A stretch of 42,254 nt of DNA from Chryseobacterium gleum (GTDB taxonomy: Bacteria > Bacteroidota > Bacteroidia > Flavobacteriales_F > PHOS-HE28), in assembly GCA_945872795.1 (NCBI GenBank), contig CAMCAZ010000032.1:1-42254 (forward strand), read 5' to 3'. The translations under genes and the position numbers were made by a program. How positions within the stretch are numbered: position 1 is the stretch's first letter; the number at the start of each line of letters is the position of its first letter. Under the pieces are notes generated by a model that saw only the letters and a list, made by a program, of their open reading frames with translations, did no database searches and was not told the DNA's origin. Positions 25,345 through 29,892 of the stretch are shown here, one piece after another.

Positions 25345-25589
25345 TTCCTTGGTATTTCCGGAAGGGACCCTGACTTTAGGGCGGTTAAAGATAGAAGGTT
25401 CGTCTGCTTCTGTAACCCCACAGCCCCCAGTTCTTAGGCCATCGTGGTCCCGGCCGCACCCGTCCAACAAACGACTGCAAACGCTTACAAACGTCGATCA
25501 ACCGGATCCAGCCAGGGACCGCTCAGTCCTTTGTGTCGGCAATGGCCAGAACGATCGACCAACAAGCGACAACCAACACACACCCAGTC
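25345..25589. other. Divergent regulatory region usp / ssb (first copy)
   Basis: The gap contains the minus-strand -7-like box for the stress protein (25386-25393), phased CAAACG iterons (25466-25495) and a GTCCTTTG -7-like box for ssb (25526-25533). The ssb leader ends AACCAACACACACCCAGT directly before its ATG; the second ssb has nearly the same leader end. No gene is supported here. Confidence 0.6.
25466..25495 (+). promoter_or_regulatory. Phased CAAACG iterons upstream of the first ssb
   Basis: Three contiguous 10-bp direct repeats, AACAAACGAC, TGCAAACGCT and TACAAACGTC, share the core CAAACG at the same phase. They end upstream of the -33 position. The last core ends 33 nt before the -7-like box start (25526), the same distance as at the second ssb gene. 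A 10-bp period places all cores on one face of the helix, as expected for an activator or repressor array. Confidence 0.65.
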
Positions 25590-25943
25590 ATGAATACCTC
25601 GATGAAGAACAAAGTGCAGCTGATCGGCAACCTGGGCGGCGACCCCGAACTGAAGGGCCTGAGCAATGGGCAGCATATGCTGCGCTTGAGCCTTGCGACG
25701 AACGAGCGCTTCAAGGGCGCCGATGGTGAATGGAAGGAGGACGTCCAGTGGCACCCTGTCGTGGTGTGGGGCAAACAGGCCGAGCGCTTGTCCACACTGG
25801 TTAAAAAGGGGACCACCCTGATGGTGGAGGGCCGCCTGGTGCACCGCCGGTACGAGACCAAGGAGGGGGAGAAGCGCTTCTCCACGGAGGTCGTGCTCTC
25901 TGAATACCAATTGGTGAGCAGTGCCAAGGCGGAAGTGAACTGA
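25590..25943 (+). CDS. ssb: Single-stranded DNA-binding protein (short form), copy 1
   Basis: A 117-residue OB-fold SSB. It starts MNTSMKNKVQLIGNLGGDPE and has the core strands LATNERF, WHPVVVWGKQAERL, KKGTTLMVEGRLVHRRYE and FSTEVVLSEYQLV. It ends right after the OB fold and lacks the acidic C-terminal tail (DDDIPF type) that recruits partner proteins. I chose ATG 25590 because the preceding frame residues are not SSB-like and the leader is conserved with copy 2. The paralogue is at 29449-29808. A strong terminator follows at 25968. Confidence 0.93.
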   Translation: MNTSMKNKVQLIGNLGGDPELKGLSNGQHMLRLSLATNERFKGADGEWKEDVQWHPVVVWGKQAERLSTLVKKGTTLMVEGRLVHRRYETKEGEKRFSTEVVLSEYQLVSSAKAEVN

Positions 25944-25967
25944 GCTCGAGCCACGGATCGACAAGGC

Positions 25968-26000
25968 AAAGGGCCGCGCTCCCCGGAGTGCGGCCCTTTT
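25968..26000. terminator. Rho-independent terminator, bidirectional
   Basis: AAAGGGCCGC (25968-25977) and GCGGCCCTTT (25990-25999) form a strong stem extended inward by CTCC/GGAG pairs, with A-run and T-run flanks on both strands. It separates ssb from the convergent PKD gene. Confidence 0.85.
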
Positions 26001-26024
26001 GCCTGTTCATAGCTGCTAATGGCG

Positions 26025-27209
26025 CTATTCCTTCACCACCCGATGCGTATGGATGGCAGCTTGCGAACGGACCTCCAACAGATAGGCACCGGCCTGGAGA
26101 AGCCCCAGGTCCAACACGGTCCGTTGCCCGCCGCGCACCACCCTGTGTTGATGAACGGTCCTTCCGCCCACGTCGAAGAGGGTCAGCACGCTACCATCGT
26201 TCACAGGGCCTTCGAGCACCAGTTGTGTATGGAAGGGTACGGGCCATACCCGCCAGTTATCCTTGACGACCACGTCATCCAGCCCGACCGCACTGGAGGC
26301 ATTGATCTCCACACACTCGGTGGTCAGGCAGGTATCGTTCAGCATGGCGCCCCACATGCGCAGGGTGCGGCATAGGGAGAAGTTGCCTGGCGCCTCGTAG
26401 GCATGCACGGCCACGCGACCCTGTGATGTGGTCCCATCGCCGAAGTCCCACGTGATCTCATGCTCCAGACCCGAGGTCACGGAGGTGTCCAGCACGCCGA
26501 CCAGTTGACCGGAGCTGACGTGCAGAAATCCGGGATCCAGGAACAGCTCACATTCGGCATCACCGGGACCCAGGTAAAGCCACTTGCAGAGCGTGGCCGA
26601 GCAGTATCCCGGCGCGCCACCCGTTACGGTGATGCAGATGCGGTGCGGTCCGACCCCGTCGAAGGTATGCGTGGCCTGCTGGCCAGCGACGGCAGCGCCG
26701 TCATCGAAGCTCCAGGAGGTGCTGAACGACTGGTCCGCGAAGTTGGTCAGGTCCTGAAAGGTGATGGTGGCACCACTGATCAACCCCAGGGTGAAGTCCG
26801 GGTCAAGGTCCAGGCAGGAGCTGTCCGTCAGGGCATCGATGAGCATGCACGTGGAAGTGCTGCAAGGCTCAAATGTGCCCGCATCCAAGGCGTTCACGGT
26901 CAAACAAACGGGATACTCGCCAGGCCCCGGGAAATAGGTCAGCAATTCCGCCCCAGTGGATTCCTGGAATGATCCGGCCAGGTAGCTCCAGGTGCTGTTC
27001 ACCACGTAGGTATTCCCTTGGTCGATGACCGCATCGAAACGGTAGGCGTAGCTCCCCAGGATGTTGGCGGTGAATTCCACCGTCAGGCTCGGGTCGCACC
27101 CTTGCAGTGTCCCACCCCCTCGTTCGGAGGTGGCAAGCGGATGGAGCTGTGCCGTGGAGATCAGTGGTGCAGCCAGGAGAAGCAGGACGATCGATCGGAA
27201 GGACATCAT
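26025..27209 (-). CDS. Secreted PKD-domain protein with T9SS type A sorting domain
   Basis: A 394-residue surface or secreted protein. The signal peptide covers about 1-20 (ending ISTAQ). Three PKD-like modules follow. The second has WSFDDG and a CITV strand, the third WDFGDGTTS, HAYEAPGNFSLC and paired cysteines. The C-terminus (about 320-394) is a type A T9SS sorting domain with WPVPFHTQL, LFDVGGRTV and a terminal GAYLLEVRS strand, so it should be exported by the type IX system. The start overlaps the stop of the upstream membrane/barrel gene (ATGA, 27206-27209), making it the third gene of a sigma-factor operon. It is therefore likely produced under that sigma factor. Confidence 0.87.
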   Translation of the reverse strand: MMSFRSIVLLLLAAPLISTAQLHPLATSERGGGTLQGCDPSLTVEFTANILGSYAYRFDAVIDQGNTYVVNSTWSYLAGSFQESTGAELLTYFPGPGEYPVCLTVNALDAGTFEPCSTSTCMLIDALTDSSCLDLDPDFTLGLISGATITFQDLTNFADQSFSTSWSFDDGAAVAGQQATHTFDGVGPHRICITVTGGAPGYCSATLCKWLYLGPGDAECELFLDPGFLHVSSGQLVGVLDTSVTSGLEHEITWDFGDGTTSQGRVAVHAYEAPGNFSLCRTLRMWGAMLNDTCLTTECVEINASSAVGLDDVVVKDNWRVWPVPFHTQLVLEGPVNDGSVLTLFDVGGRTVHQHRVVRGGQRTVLDLGLLQAGAYLLEVRSQAAIHTHRVVKE

Positions 27210-28627
27210 GGACGTGTGTGGGAGGGAAGATGAAAGATCAGGCGCAGTTCCGCACCGTGTCGCACAGGGTACGCTTGAACAGGTCCTTGTTCAGAGAGCG
27301 CTGCGACACCCTGCATGCCTGCGTATCCGGCCTGCACGGACCAGCGCTCATGCAGGCGATAACCCAGGTCTATGCCGGCAAGCGCGAGCACCATGTCGGG
27401 ATAACGGTCTGTGCGTACGGCCGTATTCAGTTGGCCAGCGCGCACCGTGCCGTTCTCCTCGCGCAACAGGCCTGGCCCAGCTTCGGCCCGGGTCAGTTCC
27501 AAGGCCATCCCGGCCCGCACACCGAGCGTCCATCTGCGAAGGTCCACGGTCCAATGCCCCAGCACGGGGATCCGCACCATGGTCCTGCGGTCGATGCCTT
27601 CCGTGAGCTCTTCATCCACCGTCGTGGTCCGGATCGTATCCACGTTGCTGACGAACACCTGGTCGTTCAGCGTGACGAAATAGCTGCTGATCTCTTCCGT
27701 GGTGGTGCTTTGTGCATCGACGTGGCTGAACGTGCGCTCCAAGCGGTCCACGATGATGCCGGAAGAGAGACCAAAGCCGCTCCGCCATTGACGCCCGCCC
27801 AAAAGCCCCCAGGCCGTGGTGCCCACGGTGCCCTCGCTTTGGTCCAAGGCGGAGGCCAACACCTCATCGCTGCCTTTCCAGGTGGAACGGGTGGAGCAGG
27901 TGGACCATTGGGCGCCCAACCACCATTCGCCCCGAGGAAGGACGTAGTTCACAGGTCGGTCCACACGCGTGGGTTCCAGGATGATCTCGCGCCGGAATAC
28001 GGGTGACAAAAGGCCCACCTGTTCCTGGTCCGTGCGTTCTTCTGCCAGGACCAGCCCTACTGCCCCCTCCGGTCCTGACGGCACTGCAGCATGGATGGGT
28101 TCACCAGCGGTTACGGAATGCCCGCCCAAGGCATCCGTGAGGCGCTTGCTCTCGTTGCGGTGGATCGAGCGGTCAGTGGGGCCCATGGCCCCGATCTCCG
28201 CTTTCGCCACAACGCGGGCAGTGGACCCCGTGGTCGGTGCGATCCTTGTCCGATCGACCACGGCAGCAGCGTTTTCCAGGATTTCAGGGCCGGGCTGTTC
28301 CGTCCCGGTATGTTCATCACCAACGGCCGGCTTCTTTTCCCGAGCCATACCGTTCACCCCGGGTTCCACGTGGGTCACGGTTCCGTTCACCACACCATCG
28401 GTGAGCTGGTCATTGCCGGTATCGTGGGTGGCATAGTGGACCATGGCGCCCAGCAGCGCGGTACCGACCAGGGCAAAGCCGGCGTATCGGCGCCAGTACC
28501 ATGCGCCGCCCCTTTTGCGCTTGTCTTGTGCGGCGGCAATTCCTGCCCACACGCTGGCGGGTGGTTTCGCCTCAGCGTTGGCCAGGACCCGGCGGAACCG
28601 GTCGTCAATGGGGTGTCTTTCCTGCAT
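27206..28627 (-). CDS. Anti-sigma-like membrane protein with barrel-like C-terminal domain
   Basis: A 473-residue protein of unusual layout. Residues 1-35 are charged and cytoplasmic in style (DDRFRRVLANAEAKPPASVWAGI), like the N-terminus of Bacteroidota anti-sigma proteins. One transmembrane helix lies near 46-66. A low-complexity linker (about 70-200) follows. The last 230 residues are beta-rich with alternating aromatic strands (WWLGAQWS, WTVDLRRWTLGVRAGMALEL, YRLHERWSVQAGYAG) and end in a strand resembling an outer-membrane barrel. It overlaps the ECF sigma gene by 23 bp and the PKD gene by 4 bp. I infer that it restrains the sigma factor; a barrel behind an inner-membrane helix is topologically odd. 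Confidence 0.7.
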   Translation of the reverse strand: MQERHPIDDRFRRVLANAEAKPPASVWAGIAAAQDKRKRGGAWYWRRYAGFALVGTALLGAMVHYATHDTGNDQLTDGVVNGTVTHVEPGVNGMAREKKPAVGDEHTGTEQPGPEILENAAAVVDRTRIAPTTGSTARVVAKAEIGAMGPTDRSIHRNESKRLTDALGGHSVTAGEPIHAAVPSGPEGAVGLVLAEERTDQEQVGLLSPVFRREIILEPTRVDRPVNYVLPRGEWWLGAQWSTCSTRSTWKGSDEVLASALDQSEGTVGTTAWGLLGGRQWRSGFGLSSGIIVDRLERTFSHVDAQSTTTEEISSYFVTLNDQVFVSNVDTIRTTTVDEELTEGIDRRTMVRIPVLGHWTVDLRRWTLGVRAGMALELTRAEAGPGLLREENGTVRAGQLNTAVRTDRYPDMVLALAGIDLGYRLHERWSVQAGYAGMQGVAALSEQGPVQAYPVRHGAELRLIFHLPSHTRP

Positions 28628-29192
28628 GGACGGGAGTGGTGATGTCGTTCAGTCGTTGTTGCAGCATACGTCGGGCCTTGGCAAGCTGGCTGCGGGAAGT
28701 GCTCTCCCCGAAACCGAGCATCTCGGCGATCTCCGCATGGTCGTAGCCATCGATGGCGTAGAGGTTGAAGACCGCGCGGTAGCCCTCGGGCAGCCCGGAG
28801 ACGAGCTTCAGCACCTCCTGCTCCCCCAGCAGGTCCAATGCTTCGGCCGCCACGGGTTCCTCCGGCAGGTGCTCCAGTCCGAAGCGTTCCTGCCGGAACG
28901 ATTTCCTGCGGTATTGATTGATGGCCGTATGTACCATGATCCGGCGGATCCAGCCTTCCAATGAGCCCTGCATCCGGAACCCGCTGAGCTTGTCGAACAC
29001 CCGGATGAAGCCCTCCTGCATCAGGTCCTGGGCCTCCAGCTCGTGCCGGGCATAGCGAAGACACACGCCGTACATACGCCGCGCATACCGCGCATACAGG
29101 AGCTCCTGGCAGCGACGGTCGGCATTCAGGCAACCCTGAACGAGCTCGCGTTCCGTTAGTTCATTCAATAGGAAGGCCTCTCCTGTTGACAA
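28605..29192 (-). CDS. RNA polymerase sigma factor, ECF (sigma-70 family)
   Basis: An ECF sigma factor of about 195 residues. Region 2 has LYARYARRMYGVCLRYA, then DLMQEGFIRVFDKL and the promoter-melting segment GSLEGWIRRIMVHTAINQYRR. Region 4 has LPEGYRAVFNLYAIDGYDHAEIAEMLG followed by a recognition helix (GESTSRSQLAKARRML). No ATG is convincingly placed. TTG 29192 and TTG 29168 are plausible starts, and an ATG at 29270 would include a TATCTTTC promoter-like box (29240-29247, minus), so I consider it too early. It heads the operon sigma / anti-sigma-barrel / PKD. Confidence 0.88.
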   Translation of the reverse strand: MSTGEAFLLNELTERELVQGCLNADRRCQELLYARYARRMYGVCLRYARHELEAQDLMQEGFIRVFDKLSGFRMQGSLEGWIRRIMVHTAINQYRRKSFRQERFGLEHLPEEPVAAEALDLLGEQEVLKLVSGLPEGYRAVFNLYAIDGYDHAEIAEMLGFGESTSRSQLAKARRMLQQRLNDITTPVHAGKTPH

Positions 29193-29448
29193 GACAGCAC
29201 ATCCCGTGAGAATGCTGCCTGCCCGTCCGTGGGGTTTCAGAAAGATACTGGAGATGGCCCCCAACACCATCGGCCGGCTTGTAAGGTCTGGTCCGTAGTC
29301 GTCCAACAAACGACAGCAAACGGCTGCAATCGCTTACAAACGAATACTGGCCGGATAACGCATTCCGACCCCTCAACATTTGCATCGGTCATCGGCATCA
29401 GCCACCGAGGCCGTTCACGAAAAGTCAAACCAACAAACACCCAGTACC
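29193..29448. other. Divergent regulatory region sigma operon / ssb (second copy)
   Basis: Holds the minus-strand TATCTTTC box for the sigma operon (29240-29247), the four-unit CAAACG iteron array (29305-29344), an AACATTTG -7-like box (29375-29382) and the ssb leader ending AACCAACAAACACCCAGTA. The iteron-to-box distance and the leader end match the first ssb copy. Confidence 0.6.
29305..29344 (+). promoter_or_regulatory. Phased CAAACG iterons upstream of the second ssb
   Basis: Four contiguous 10-bp repeats: AACAAACGAC, AGCAAACGGC, TGCAATCGCT and TACAAACGAA. The first, third and fourth correspond to the three units at the first ssb (one base differs in the third core), and the second is an extra unit. 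The 14-mer GTCCAACAAACGAC is identical at both loci (25462-25475 and 29301-29314). The last core ends 33 nt before the -7-like box start, exactly as at copy 1. Confidence 0.65.
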
Positions 29449-29808
29449 ATGAATACGCTGAAGAACAAAGTGAGCCTGATCGGTAACCTCGGATTCGATC
29501 CCGAAGTGCGGGAGATCGCCAAAGGGCGCAAGGTGGCCCGCATCTCGGTCGCCACCAATGACAGCTACCGCAATGCCAGCGGTGAGCGGGTGACCGACAC
29601 CCAATGGCACACAGTGGTGGCCTGGGGCCGCACCGCTGAAATGGTGGAACGCCTGCTGCGGAAAGGGACCCCGGTGGCCCTGGAAGGGCGCCTGGTGCAC
29701 CGCAGCTACGAGACCAAGGACGGCAGCAAGCGCTACGTGACGGAGATCGTCATGAACGACTTCCAACTGCTGCCTTCGAAGAAGGAGGAACTGGCCCAGG
29801 CCGCGTAA
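29449..29808 (+). CDS. ssb: Single-stranded DNA-binding protein (short form), copy 2
   Basis: A 119-residue OB-fold SSB beginning MNTLKNKVSLIGNLGFDPE, with SVATNDSY, WHTVVAWGRTAEMVERLLRKGTPV and GRLVHRSYETKDGSKRYVTEIV. Like copy 1 it has no acidic tail, ending KKEELAQAA. The two proteins are clearly paralogous over their whole length. A hairpin follows at 29831-29859, before the DUF748 gene. Confidence 0.93.
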   Translation: MNTLKNKVSLIGNLGFDPEVREIAKGRKVARISVATNDSYRNASGERVTDTQWHTVVAWGRTAEMVERLLRKGTPVALEGRLVHRSYETKDGSKRYVTEIVMNDFQLLPSKKEELAQAA

Positions 29809-29830
29809 CGCAGACCAGAGCACAACACCA

Positions 29831-29859
29831 GAACGGCCCCGGCGATCCCGGGGCCGTTC
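29831..29859 (+). terminator. Hairpin after the second ssb
   Basis: GAACGGCCCCGG (29831-29842) pairs perfectly with CCGGGGCCGTTC (29848-29859) around a 5-nt loop. The downstream run is GTCGTTTG rather than a pure T-tract, but the strong stem and position after ssb favour a terminator. Confidence 0.65.
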
Positions 29860-29892
29860 GTCGTTTGTGCCAGGGCCTTTCTAATTTGCGCC

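Follow-up and report, generated by a model that had tools for sequence, protein, structure and literature searches.

In Streptomyces, the pleiotropic developmental regulator BldC, a MerR-like winged helix-turn-helix protein of 68 residues, binds cooperatively as a head-to-tail oligomer to direct repeats of variable number that lie one helical turn apart (9 bp in the crystal), with two repeats at whiI and four at smeA (PMC5859096). Here we describe arrays of helically phased direct repeats, likewise variable in number, upstream of ssb1 and ssb2, two genes for small single-stranded DNA-binding proteins (SSB) in a 42,254-nucleotide stretch of Chryseobacterium gleum DNA (GenBank assembly GCA_945872795.1, contig CAMCAZ010000032.1, positions 1 to 42,254, forward strand), hereafter the window. 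The likeness bears on mode of action and not on membership: the units here are 10 bp long, CG-centred and mostly found at small ssb genes, and the regulator at the array is probably, judging by genome comparisons, a treble-clef zinc-finger protein that we call Z. We consider it fairly probable that the array acts as operator in a Bacteroidia transcription switch with small ssb as its main target, probably bound by Z and activating at the -33 position. An anonymous motif thereby becomes a testable regulator-operator pair, and it would be a further example of transcription control in which a regulator binds phased direct repeats cooperatively, a mode described in the BldC study as less common than binding to palindromes (PMC5859096).

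Zinc fingers of the YacG type (gyrase inhibitor) show a weak likeness in sequence and fold to the N-terminal part of Z; the predicted structure of Z has, in addition, a helix of 36 residues and an alpha/beta domain at the C-terminus. In the MetJ system, tandem short palindromes with an 8-bp period lie under a cooperative row of small ribbon-helix-helix dimers; the boxes described here are also tandem and nearly palindromic, but their period is 10 bp and no ribbon-helix-helix protein is implicated. The non-canonical LexA of Bacteroidetes, the same phylum, recognizes the palindromes GGA-N5-TCC or CTAA-N5-TTAG, and its regulation can include ssb and other DNA-repair genes; it is an S24-peptidase repressor (PMC8565304), whereas Z is a zinc-finger protein. 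Neither palindrome is present in the window promoters (25440-25589 and 29280-29448), and among 91 ssb upstream regions GGA-N5-TCC occurs in 6 and CTAA-N5-TTAG in 0. The original prediction had proposed a dedicated regulator for ssb, DNA damage or competence. A dedicated regulator stands in outline and may be an activator; a role in DNA damage or competence is not supported. The findings suggest that these bacteria regulate their tailless SSB through a switch that does not use the known SOS motifs. The original prediction knew of no described regulator for the site, and the open-licence PMC papers that we searched held none that matches.

The two arrays and their promoters

Three (ssb1) and four (ssb2) tandem 10-bp units with a CAAACG core had been predicted, the final core standing 33 nt before the -7-like box in both copies. 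Both statements are exact (Table 1): at ssb1 the final core ends at 25493 and the -7-like octamer starts at 25526, at ssb2 these positions are 29342 and 29375, and the gap from final core to TTTG is 36 nt in each copy. Since an extra unit (ACCGGAT or GCCGGAT) overlaps the -33 position, we count four units at ssb1 and five at ssb2. The copies share, as had also been proposed, the 14-mer GTCCAACAAACGAC (25462-25475 and 29301-29314) and a leader end (25571-25588 and 29428-29445, 94% identical). Three-unit CAA[AT]CG arrays with a 10-bp period match the window three times, once in array 1 and twice, with overlap, in array 2; they have no match in 60 first-order Markov resamplings of it, which are not exact dinucleotide shuffles; a looser two-unit pattern with up to two mismatches is not rare (7 matches in the window vs a mean of 2.57 expected). 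Perfect two-unit matches occur in the 3.3-Mb genome only at ssb1 and ssb2. A recent duplication does not account for the resemblance, since the two proteins are 53% identical in alignment and the array also precedes orthologues from other families. Eight relatives aligned with ssb1 and ssb2 also lack the acidic C-terminal tail. Each gene is followed by an inverted repeat (25961-26006 with 22-nt arms, 29820-29870 with 23-nt arms), perhaps a terminator.

Table 1. Features of the two ssb loci in the window
Feature	Position	Strand	Description
ssb1	25590..25943	+	117-aa SSB without acidic C-terminal tail; Pfam SSB, E 8e-33
ssb2	29449..29808	+	119-aa SSB without acidic C-terminal tail; Pfam SSB, E 9.3e-33
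Array 1 (ssb1)	25468..25493	+	Three CAAACG at 10-bp period; units start at 25468, 25478, 25488
Array 2 (ssb2)	29307..29342	+	CAAACG, CAAACG, CAATCG, CAAACG at 10-bp period; units start at 29307, 29317, 29327, 29337
ACCGGAT	25501..25507	+	Final array unit at ssb1 -33 position, 29 bp from TTTG
GCCGGAT	29350..29356	+	Final array unit at ssb2 -33 position, 29 bp from TTTG
GTCCTTTG	25526..25533	+	ssb1 -7-like box
AACATTTG	29375..29382	+	ssb2 -7-like box
ECF (extracytoplasmic function) sigma factor gene	28608..29255	-	Divergent from ssb2 across array 2; Pfam Sigma70_r2, r4_2

The wider unit consensus is YAAACGNYTR. The original prediction had read conserved cores between diverged spacers as a sign of selection; selection and helical phase hold up, but the spacers are constrained rather than free. 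In 42 aligned promoters, CG stands at columns 5, 15, 25, 35, 45 and 56 (0-based) in 18, 36, 31, 42, 18 and 42 cases, the last column being imposed by selection of the set on its -33/-7 anchor; the next commonest columns (4, 14, 52 and 21) have it in 10, 4, 4 and 3. Because the units read CGTTTAYAAACG in several families, each step is approximately palindromic and centred on CG. The final unit, ACCGRHT, lies at -33 and usually 29 bp from TTTG. Of the 41 named loci L144-L184, 25 were scanned for an ACCG-like box 20-35 bp from TTTG: the distance was 29 bp in 23 and 28 bp in one, with no box in one; in a separate set of 91 regions, 56 had an ACCG-like/TTTG pair, 54 of them at 29 bp. Both window promoters carry TTTG at -7 without the TA of the sigma-ABfr motif TAnnTTTG (GTCCTTTG and AACATTTG), and the sigma-ABfr TTTG near -33 is not present in either, its position being occupied by ACCGGAT or GCCGGAT.

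In the model that we infer, Z would, in response to some signal, bind the CG-centred units cooperatively, its copies lying side by side along the same face of the helix for four to six turns. The final unit of the row would replace the -33 element, and the row would recruit RNA polymerase there (class II-like activation) to a promoter without a -33 box of its own. The result would be extra small SSB without the protein-recruiting C-terminal tail, and where a divergent Z gene lies close by, the same row would control Z too.

Just 3' of TTTG, close to where the ssb mRNA is predicted to begin, there is a short predicted hairpin of weak energy (for example L158:5942-5973; window 29383-29414). Compensatory changes affect 3 of its 4 predicted pairs in 18 of 42 leaders, a set picked and trimmed by eye and thus biased. 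In 7 loci compared with Rfam, neither the array nor the ssb leader matched a family; the sole match, Flavo-1, lies elsewhere in L146.

Distribution of the array and its targets

The original prediction would have been undermined by absence of the motif upstream of ssb orthologues. It withstood this check: at p<=0.005 the array is found upstream of small ssb in 56 of 62 regions from the genus and in 13 of 17 from further families within the class, and in 0 of 9 second-in-tandem ssb copies and 0 of 2 housekeeping ssb genes; these denominators include L081 and L082 (no usable gene start, counted as misses) and L100 (which resembles a housekeeping ssb), and one short region was excluded. Named relatives with the array include Winogradskyella, Lacinutrix, Aquimarina, Maribacter, Flavobacterium and Chitinophagaceae, and some second ssb copies of Winogradskyella and other Flavobacteriaceae are without it (L151, L170, L171, L180, L181). 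A promoter profile (R1) built from sequence only matches 100 of 197 Bacteroidia genomes and 61 of 118 genera at E<=1e-4, with arrays in 33 families of the sample. Among the 101 best profile sites, at least 75 have a tailless small ssb within 600 bp downstream and 5 more precede a small ssb by inspection (L344, L350, L351, L362, L438); of the rest, 12 fall at other genes or at repeats, 2 are ambiguous and 7 were left uninspected. These comparisons make the array much older than the window and a putative operator shared across much of the class Bacteroidia. Plasmid replication iterons are an unlikely explanation, because the array recurs upstream of ssb in so many genomes.

A regulon search of 39 relatives with the profile returned strong matches mostly at ssb promoters, G049 excepted. 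In that genome arrays precede comM, DUF2851 and a tyrosine recombinase; in G145 they precede a UvrD-like helicase and a PDDEXK_2 nuclease, and in G128 a Y1 transposase and a PolB-like exonuclease, in each case with a TTTG-like box and a start codon close behind. Likewise, an array with a TTTG-like box and a start codon close behind precedes genes for ORF6N proteins (G080, G210) and for a tyrosine recombinase (G193). These non-ssb targets, listed after the fact, are mostly DNA-processing or mobile-element genes. We dropped recA of G049 as a target because its array lies about 780 bp off, beyond an opposing gene and within a dispersed repeat. Competence genes were likewise rejected as general targets, the array occurring at 1 of 29 comM-search loci (that of G049; several of the set are fragments and one is too short) and 0 of 27 dprA loci. 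Weaker extra sites (L235, L237-L245) look chance-like by eye, some being intragenic and some preceding an acyl-carrier-protein-like start.

Two side observations belong here. Intergenic repeats with phased CGTTTATAAACG arrays occur several per genome (L215-L234 and L365-L370 in G049 and G242; L333-L336 in G192) and are perhaps like repetitive extragenic palindromes or miniature inverted-repeat transposable elements (REP/MITE). A dprA match is absent from the window's genome (G000, rated 100% complete) and present in the other 27 of 28 genomes searched.

A candidate zinc-finger regulator

Z is a small protein of about 120 aa that recurs in the flanks of the array, with a treble-clef zinc finger (CxxC...CxxxC) followed by a long helix and a small C-terminal domain. 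It is present in 134 of the 197 class genomes: 99 of the 100 with an array and 35 of the 97 others (Fisher p 1.3e-24, kinship ignored). A phylum sample of 148 genomes, which overlaps the class sample, has Z in all 29 of its array genomes, of which 19 also belong to the class sample, and in 6 of 119 others; all its listed array genomes fall within the class, and the sole Z match outside the class is a zinc-finger fragment. Position was compared in 98 of the 100 array genomes, with 59 listed Z places possibly on the array's contig. Z lies within 10 kb of the array in 50 of the 98, divergent in 49 of these 50. In 36 genomes, which represent 18 families, a divergent Z is no more than 300 bp away, and in 25 of these 36 it is within 52 bp.

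Such close loci bear on the main rival, that Z binds the array as a repressor, its row covering -33 until a signal releases it, and that Z, where divergent, also represses its own gene. The final unit does overlap -33, the distance from array to Z match is 20-52 bp in 25 of the 36 close divergent loci, and small divergent regulators are often autorepressors. Set against this, the spacings of 29 bp and of 10/11 bp, fixed across families, exceed what a roadblock needs, and the usual -33 box is missing, which is weak evidence. We regard repression as unlikely and continue to favour activation by Z at -33.

No Pfam or NCBIfam family matched Z at threshold; YacG aligns weakly with the N-terminal part (E 0.0088, 15.7 bits vs a cut-off of 79). 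MerR families gave no match for three Z proteins, and there were weak winged-helix-like fold matches only. A PDB sequence search returned nothing relevant, and Foldseek no match at E<=0.001, which excludes no family. Matches in PHROGs were weak, and the strongest (E 5.6e-7) was with a family whose function is unknown. An AlphaFold2 model from 20 Z sequences (mean predicted local distance difference test score, pLDDT, 88; predicted template-modelling score, pTM, 0.64) has a helix at 23-58 and an E-H-E-E-E-E domain. The zinc finger resembles the YacG fold weakly (Z-score 4.0, root-mean-square deviation (rmsd) 4.8, 44 aligned), and the best match of all is the Cdt1 C-terminal domain (Z-score 4.1, rmsd 3.4, 74 aligned), which we take to be a winged helix. 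Such matches agree with DNA binding by the modelled Z, short of proof.

Z paralogues, recombinases and competing readings

Some genomes carry extra, diverged Z copies. We fetched 19 of the 24 listed, with their neighbours, and L441, a copy of L440, was left uncounted, giving 18 distinct loci. In 12 of them a tyrosine recombinase (Pfam) is divergent from the Z paralogue, with no ssb there (recombinase neighbours at L439-L445, L447-L451 and L453); many of these recombinases have an extra N-terminal region. Other neighbours are found at L446 and L452 (Pfam) and at L454-L457 (by the listing of open reading frames only, with no intergenic test). Of 14 paralogue intergenic regions, 4 (L439, L442, L445, L448) carry the 10-bp-phased CG motif at p=0.002, the lowest value that 500 resamplings allow, and each of the four adjoins a recombinase; L440 has p=0.006. 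Since these regions hold the motif without ssb, the array can follow Z on its own. Among the nine remaining intergenic regions, which score more weakly, some contain variants of the motif such as CGCATA (for example at L447 and L450), which may reflect changed specificity. The arrangement suggests that the small-ssb switch is tied to site-specific recombination through the Z paralogues. Locus L437 was read only by eye. Also by eye, and outside all counts, the second array of G343 (L458) precedes a recombinase-like protein.

Tentatively, we would go further: it is possible that Z represents an undescribed family of treble-clef zinc-finger transcription factors in the Bacteroidia that polymerise on 10-bp CG-centred operators and control the handling of single-stranded DNA. 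A core branch would drive the tailless SSB and paralogues would drive adjacent tyrosine recombinases, operator and protein co-diverging, in a circuit for recombination or single-stranded-DNA stress apart from SOS.

Several observations weigh against Z as the activator at the array. G144 has two ssb genes with arrays and no Z match, and G114 and G119 have only Z fragments, yet their arrays score p 0.010 and 0.005. These genomes would suit a third factor that binds the array and controls ssb, Z and the recombinases, Z being a further target or a partner of SSB; the single-genome arrays before comM, DUF2851, UvrD-like, PDDEXK_2, exonuclease, Y1 transposase, ORF6N and tyrosine recombinase genes point the same way. 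Co-occurrence in 99 of 100 genomes, divergent Z in 18 families and the arrays between Z paralogues and recombinases argue against a third factor, which we judge unlikely. Conversely, in three genomes with Z the array at small ssb falls short of significance (G052, p 0.86; G141, 0.10; G225, 0.12). Array calls in the large samples use stricter filters, so that arrays do exist in part of the genomes scored as having Z but no array: 15 regions were fetched from genomes with Z (L419-L432, L436), and 13 score p<=0.015 while 2 do not. Small ssb and Z themselves go together: a small ssb is listed for 109 genomes, and 106 of these have Z (the exceptions being G056, G224 and G144; in the Z-less G056 and G224 the small ssb is without an array). 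It is therefore chiefly the paralogue loci that link array and Z independently of ssb, and there 10 of 14 intergenic regions fall short of p=0.002. The fold matches of Z are weak. Z is unlinked to the array in the genus of the window, and no array lies upstream of six Z genes of that genus. Finally, the absent -33 TTTG is weak evidence and no proof of activation, given that for Flavobacterium johnsoniae promoters no -33 motif could be identified (PMC7366714).

The genome of the window has one Z, on another contig (G000:C17:5169-5549), divergent from genes for a ligase-associated DNA-damage exonuclease and a cisplatin-response ligase (L403:1907-5546, G000:C17).

The ECF sigma factor gene divergent from ssb2 adjoins array 2, and a homologue is present in 26 of the 29 ssb2 loci from other genomes (L010-L038), so that this sigma factor might be thought to read or bind the element. 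Among the loci compared from outside the genus it has one weak match at E<=1e-8 (L343, 23% identity) with the array still there, and the TTTG box fits the primary sigma factor. That reading, already disfavoured, is highly improbable; the ECF sigma factor is a genus-level neighbour and not a general regulator, and array 2 may also affect its gene.

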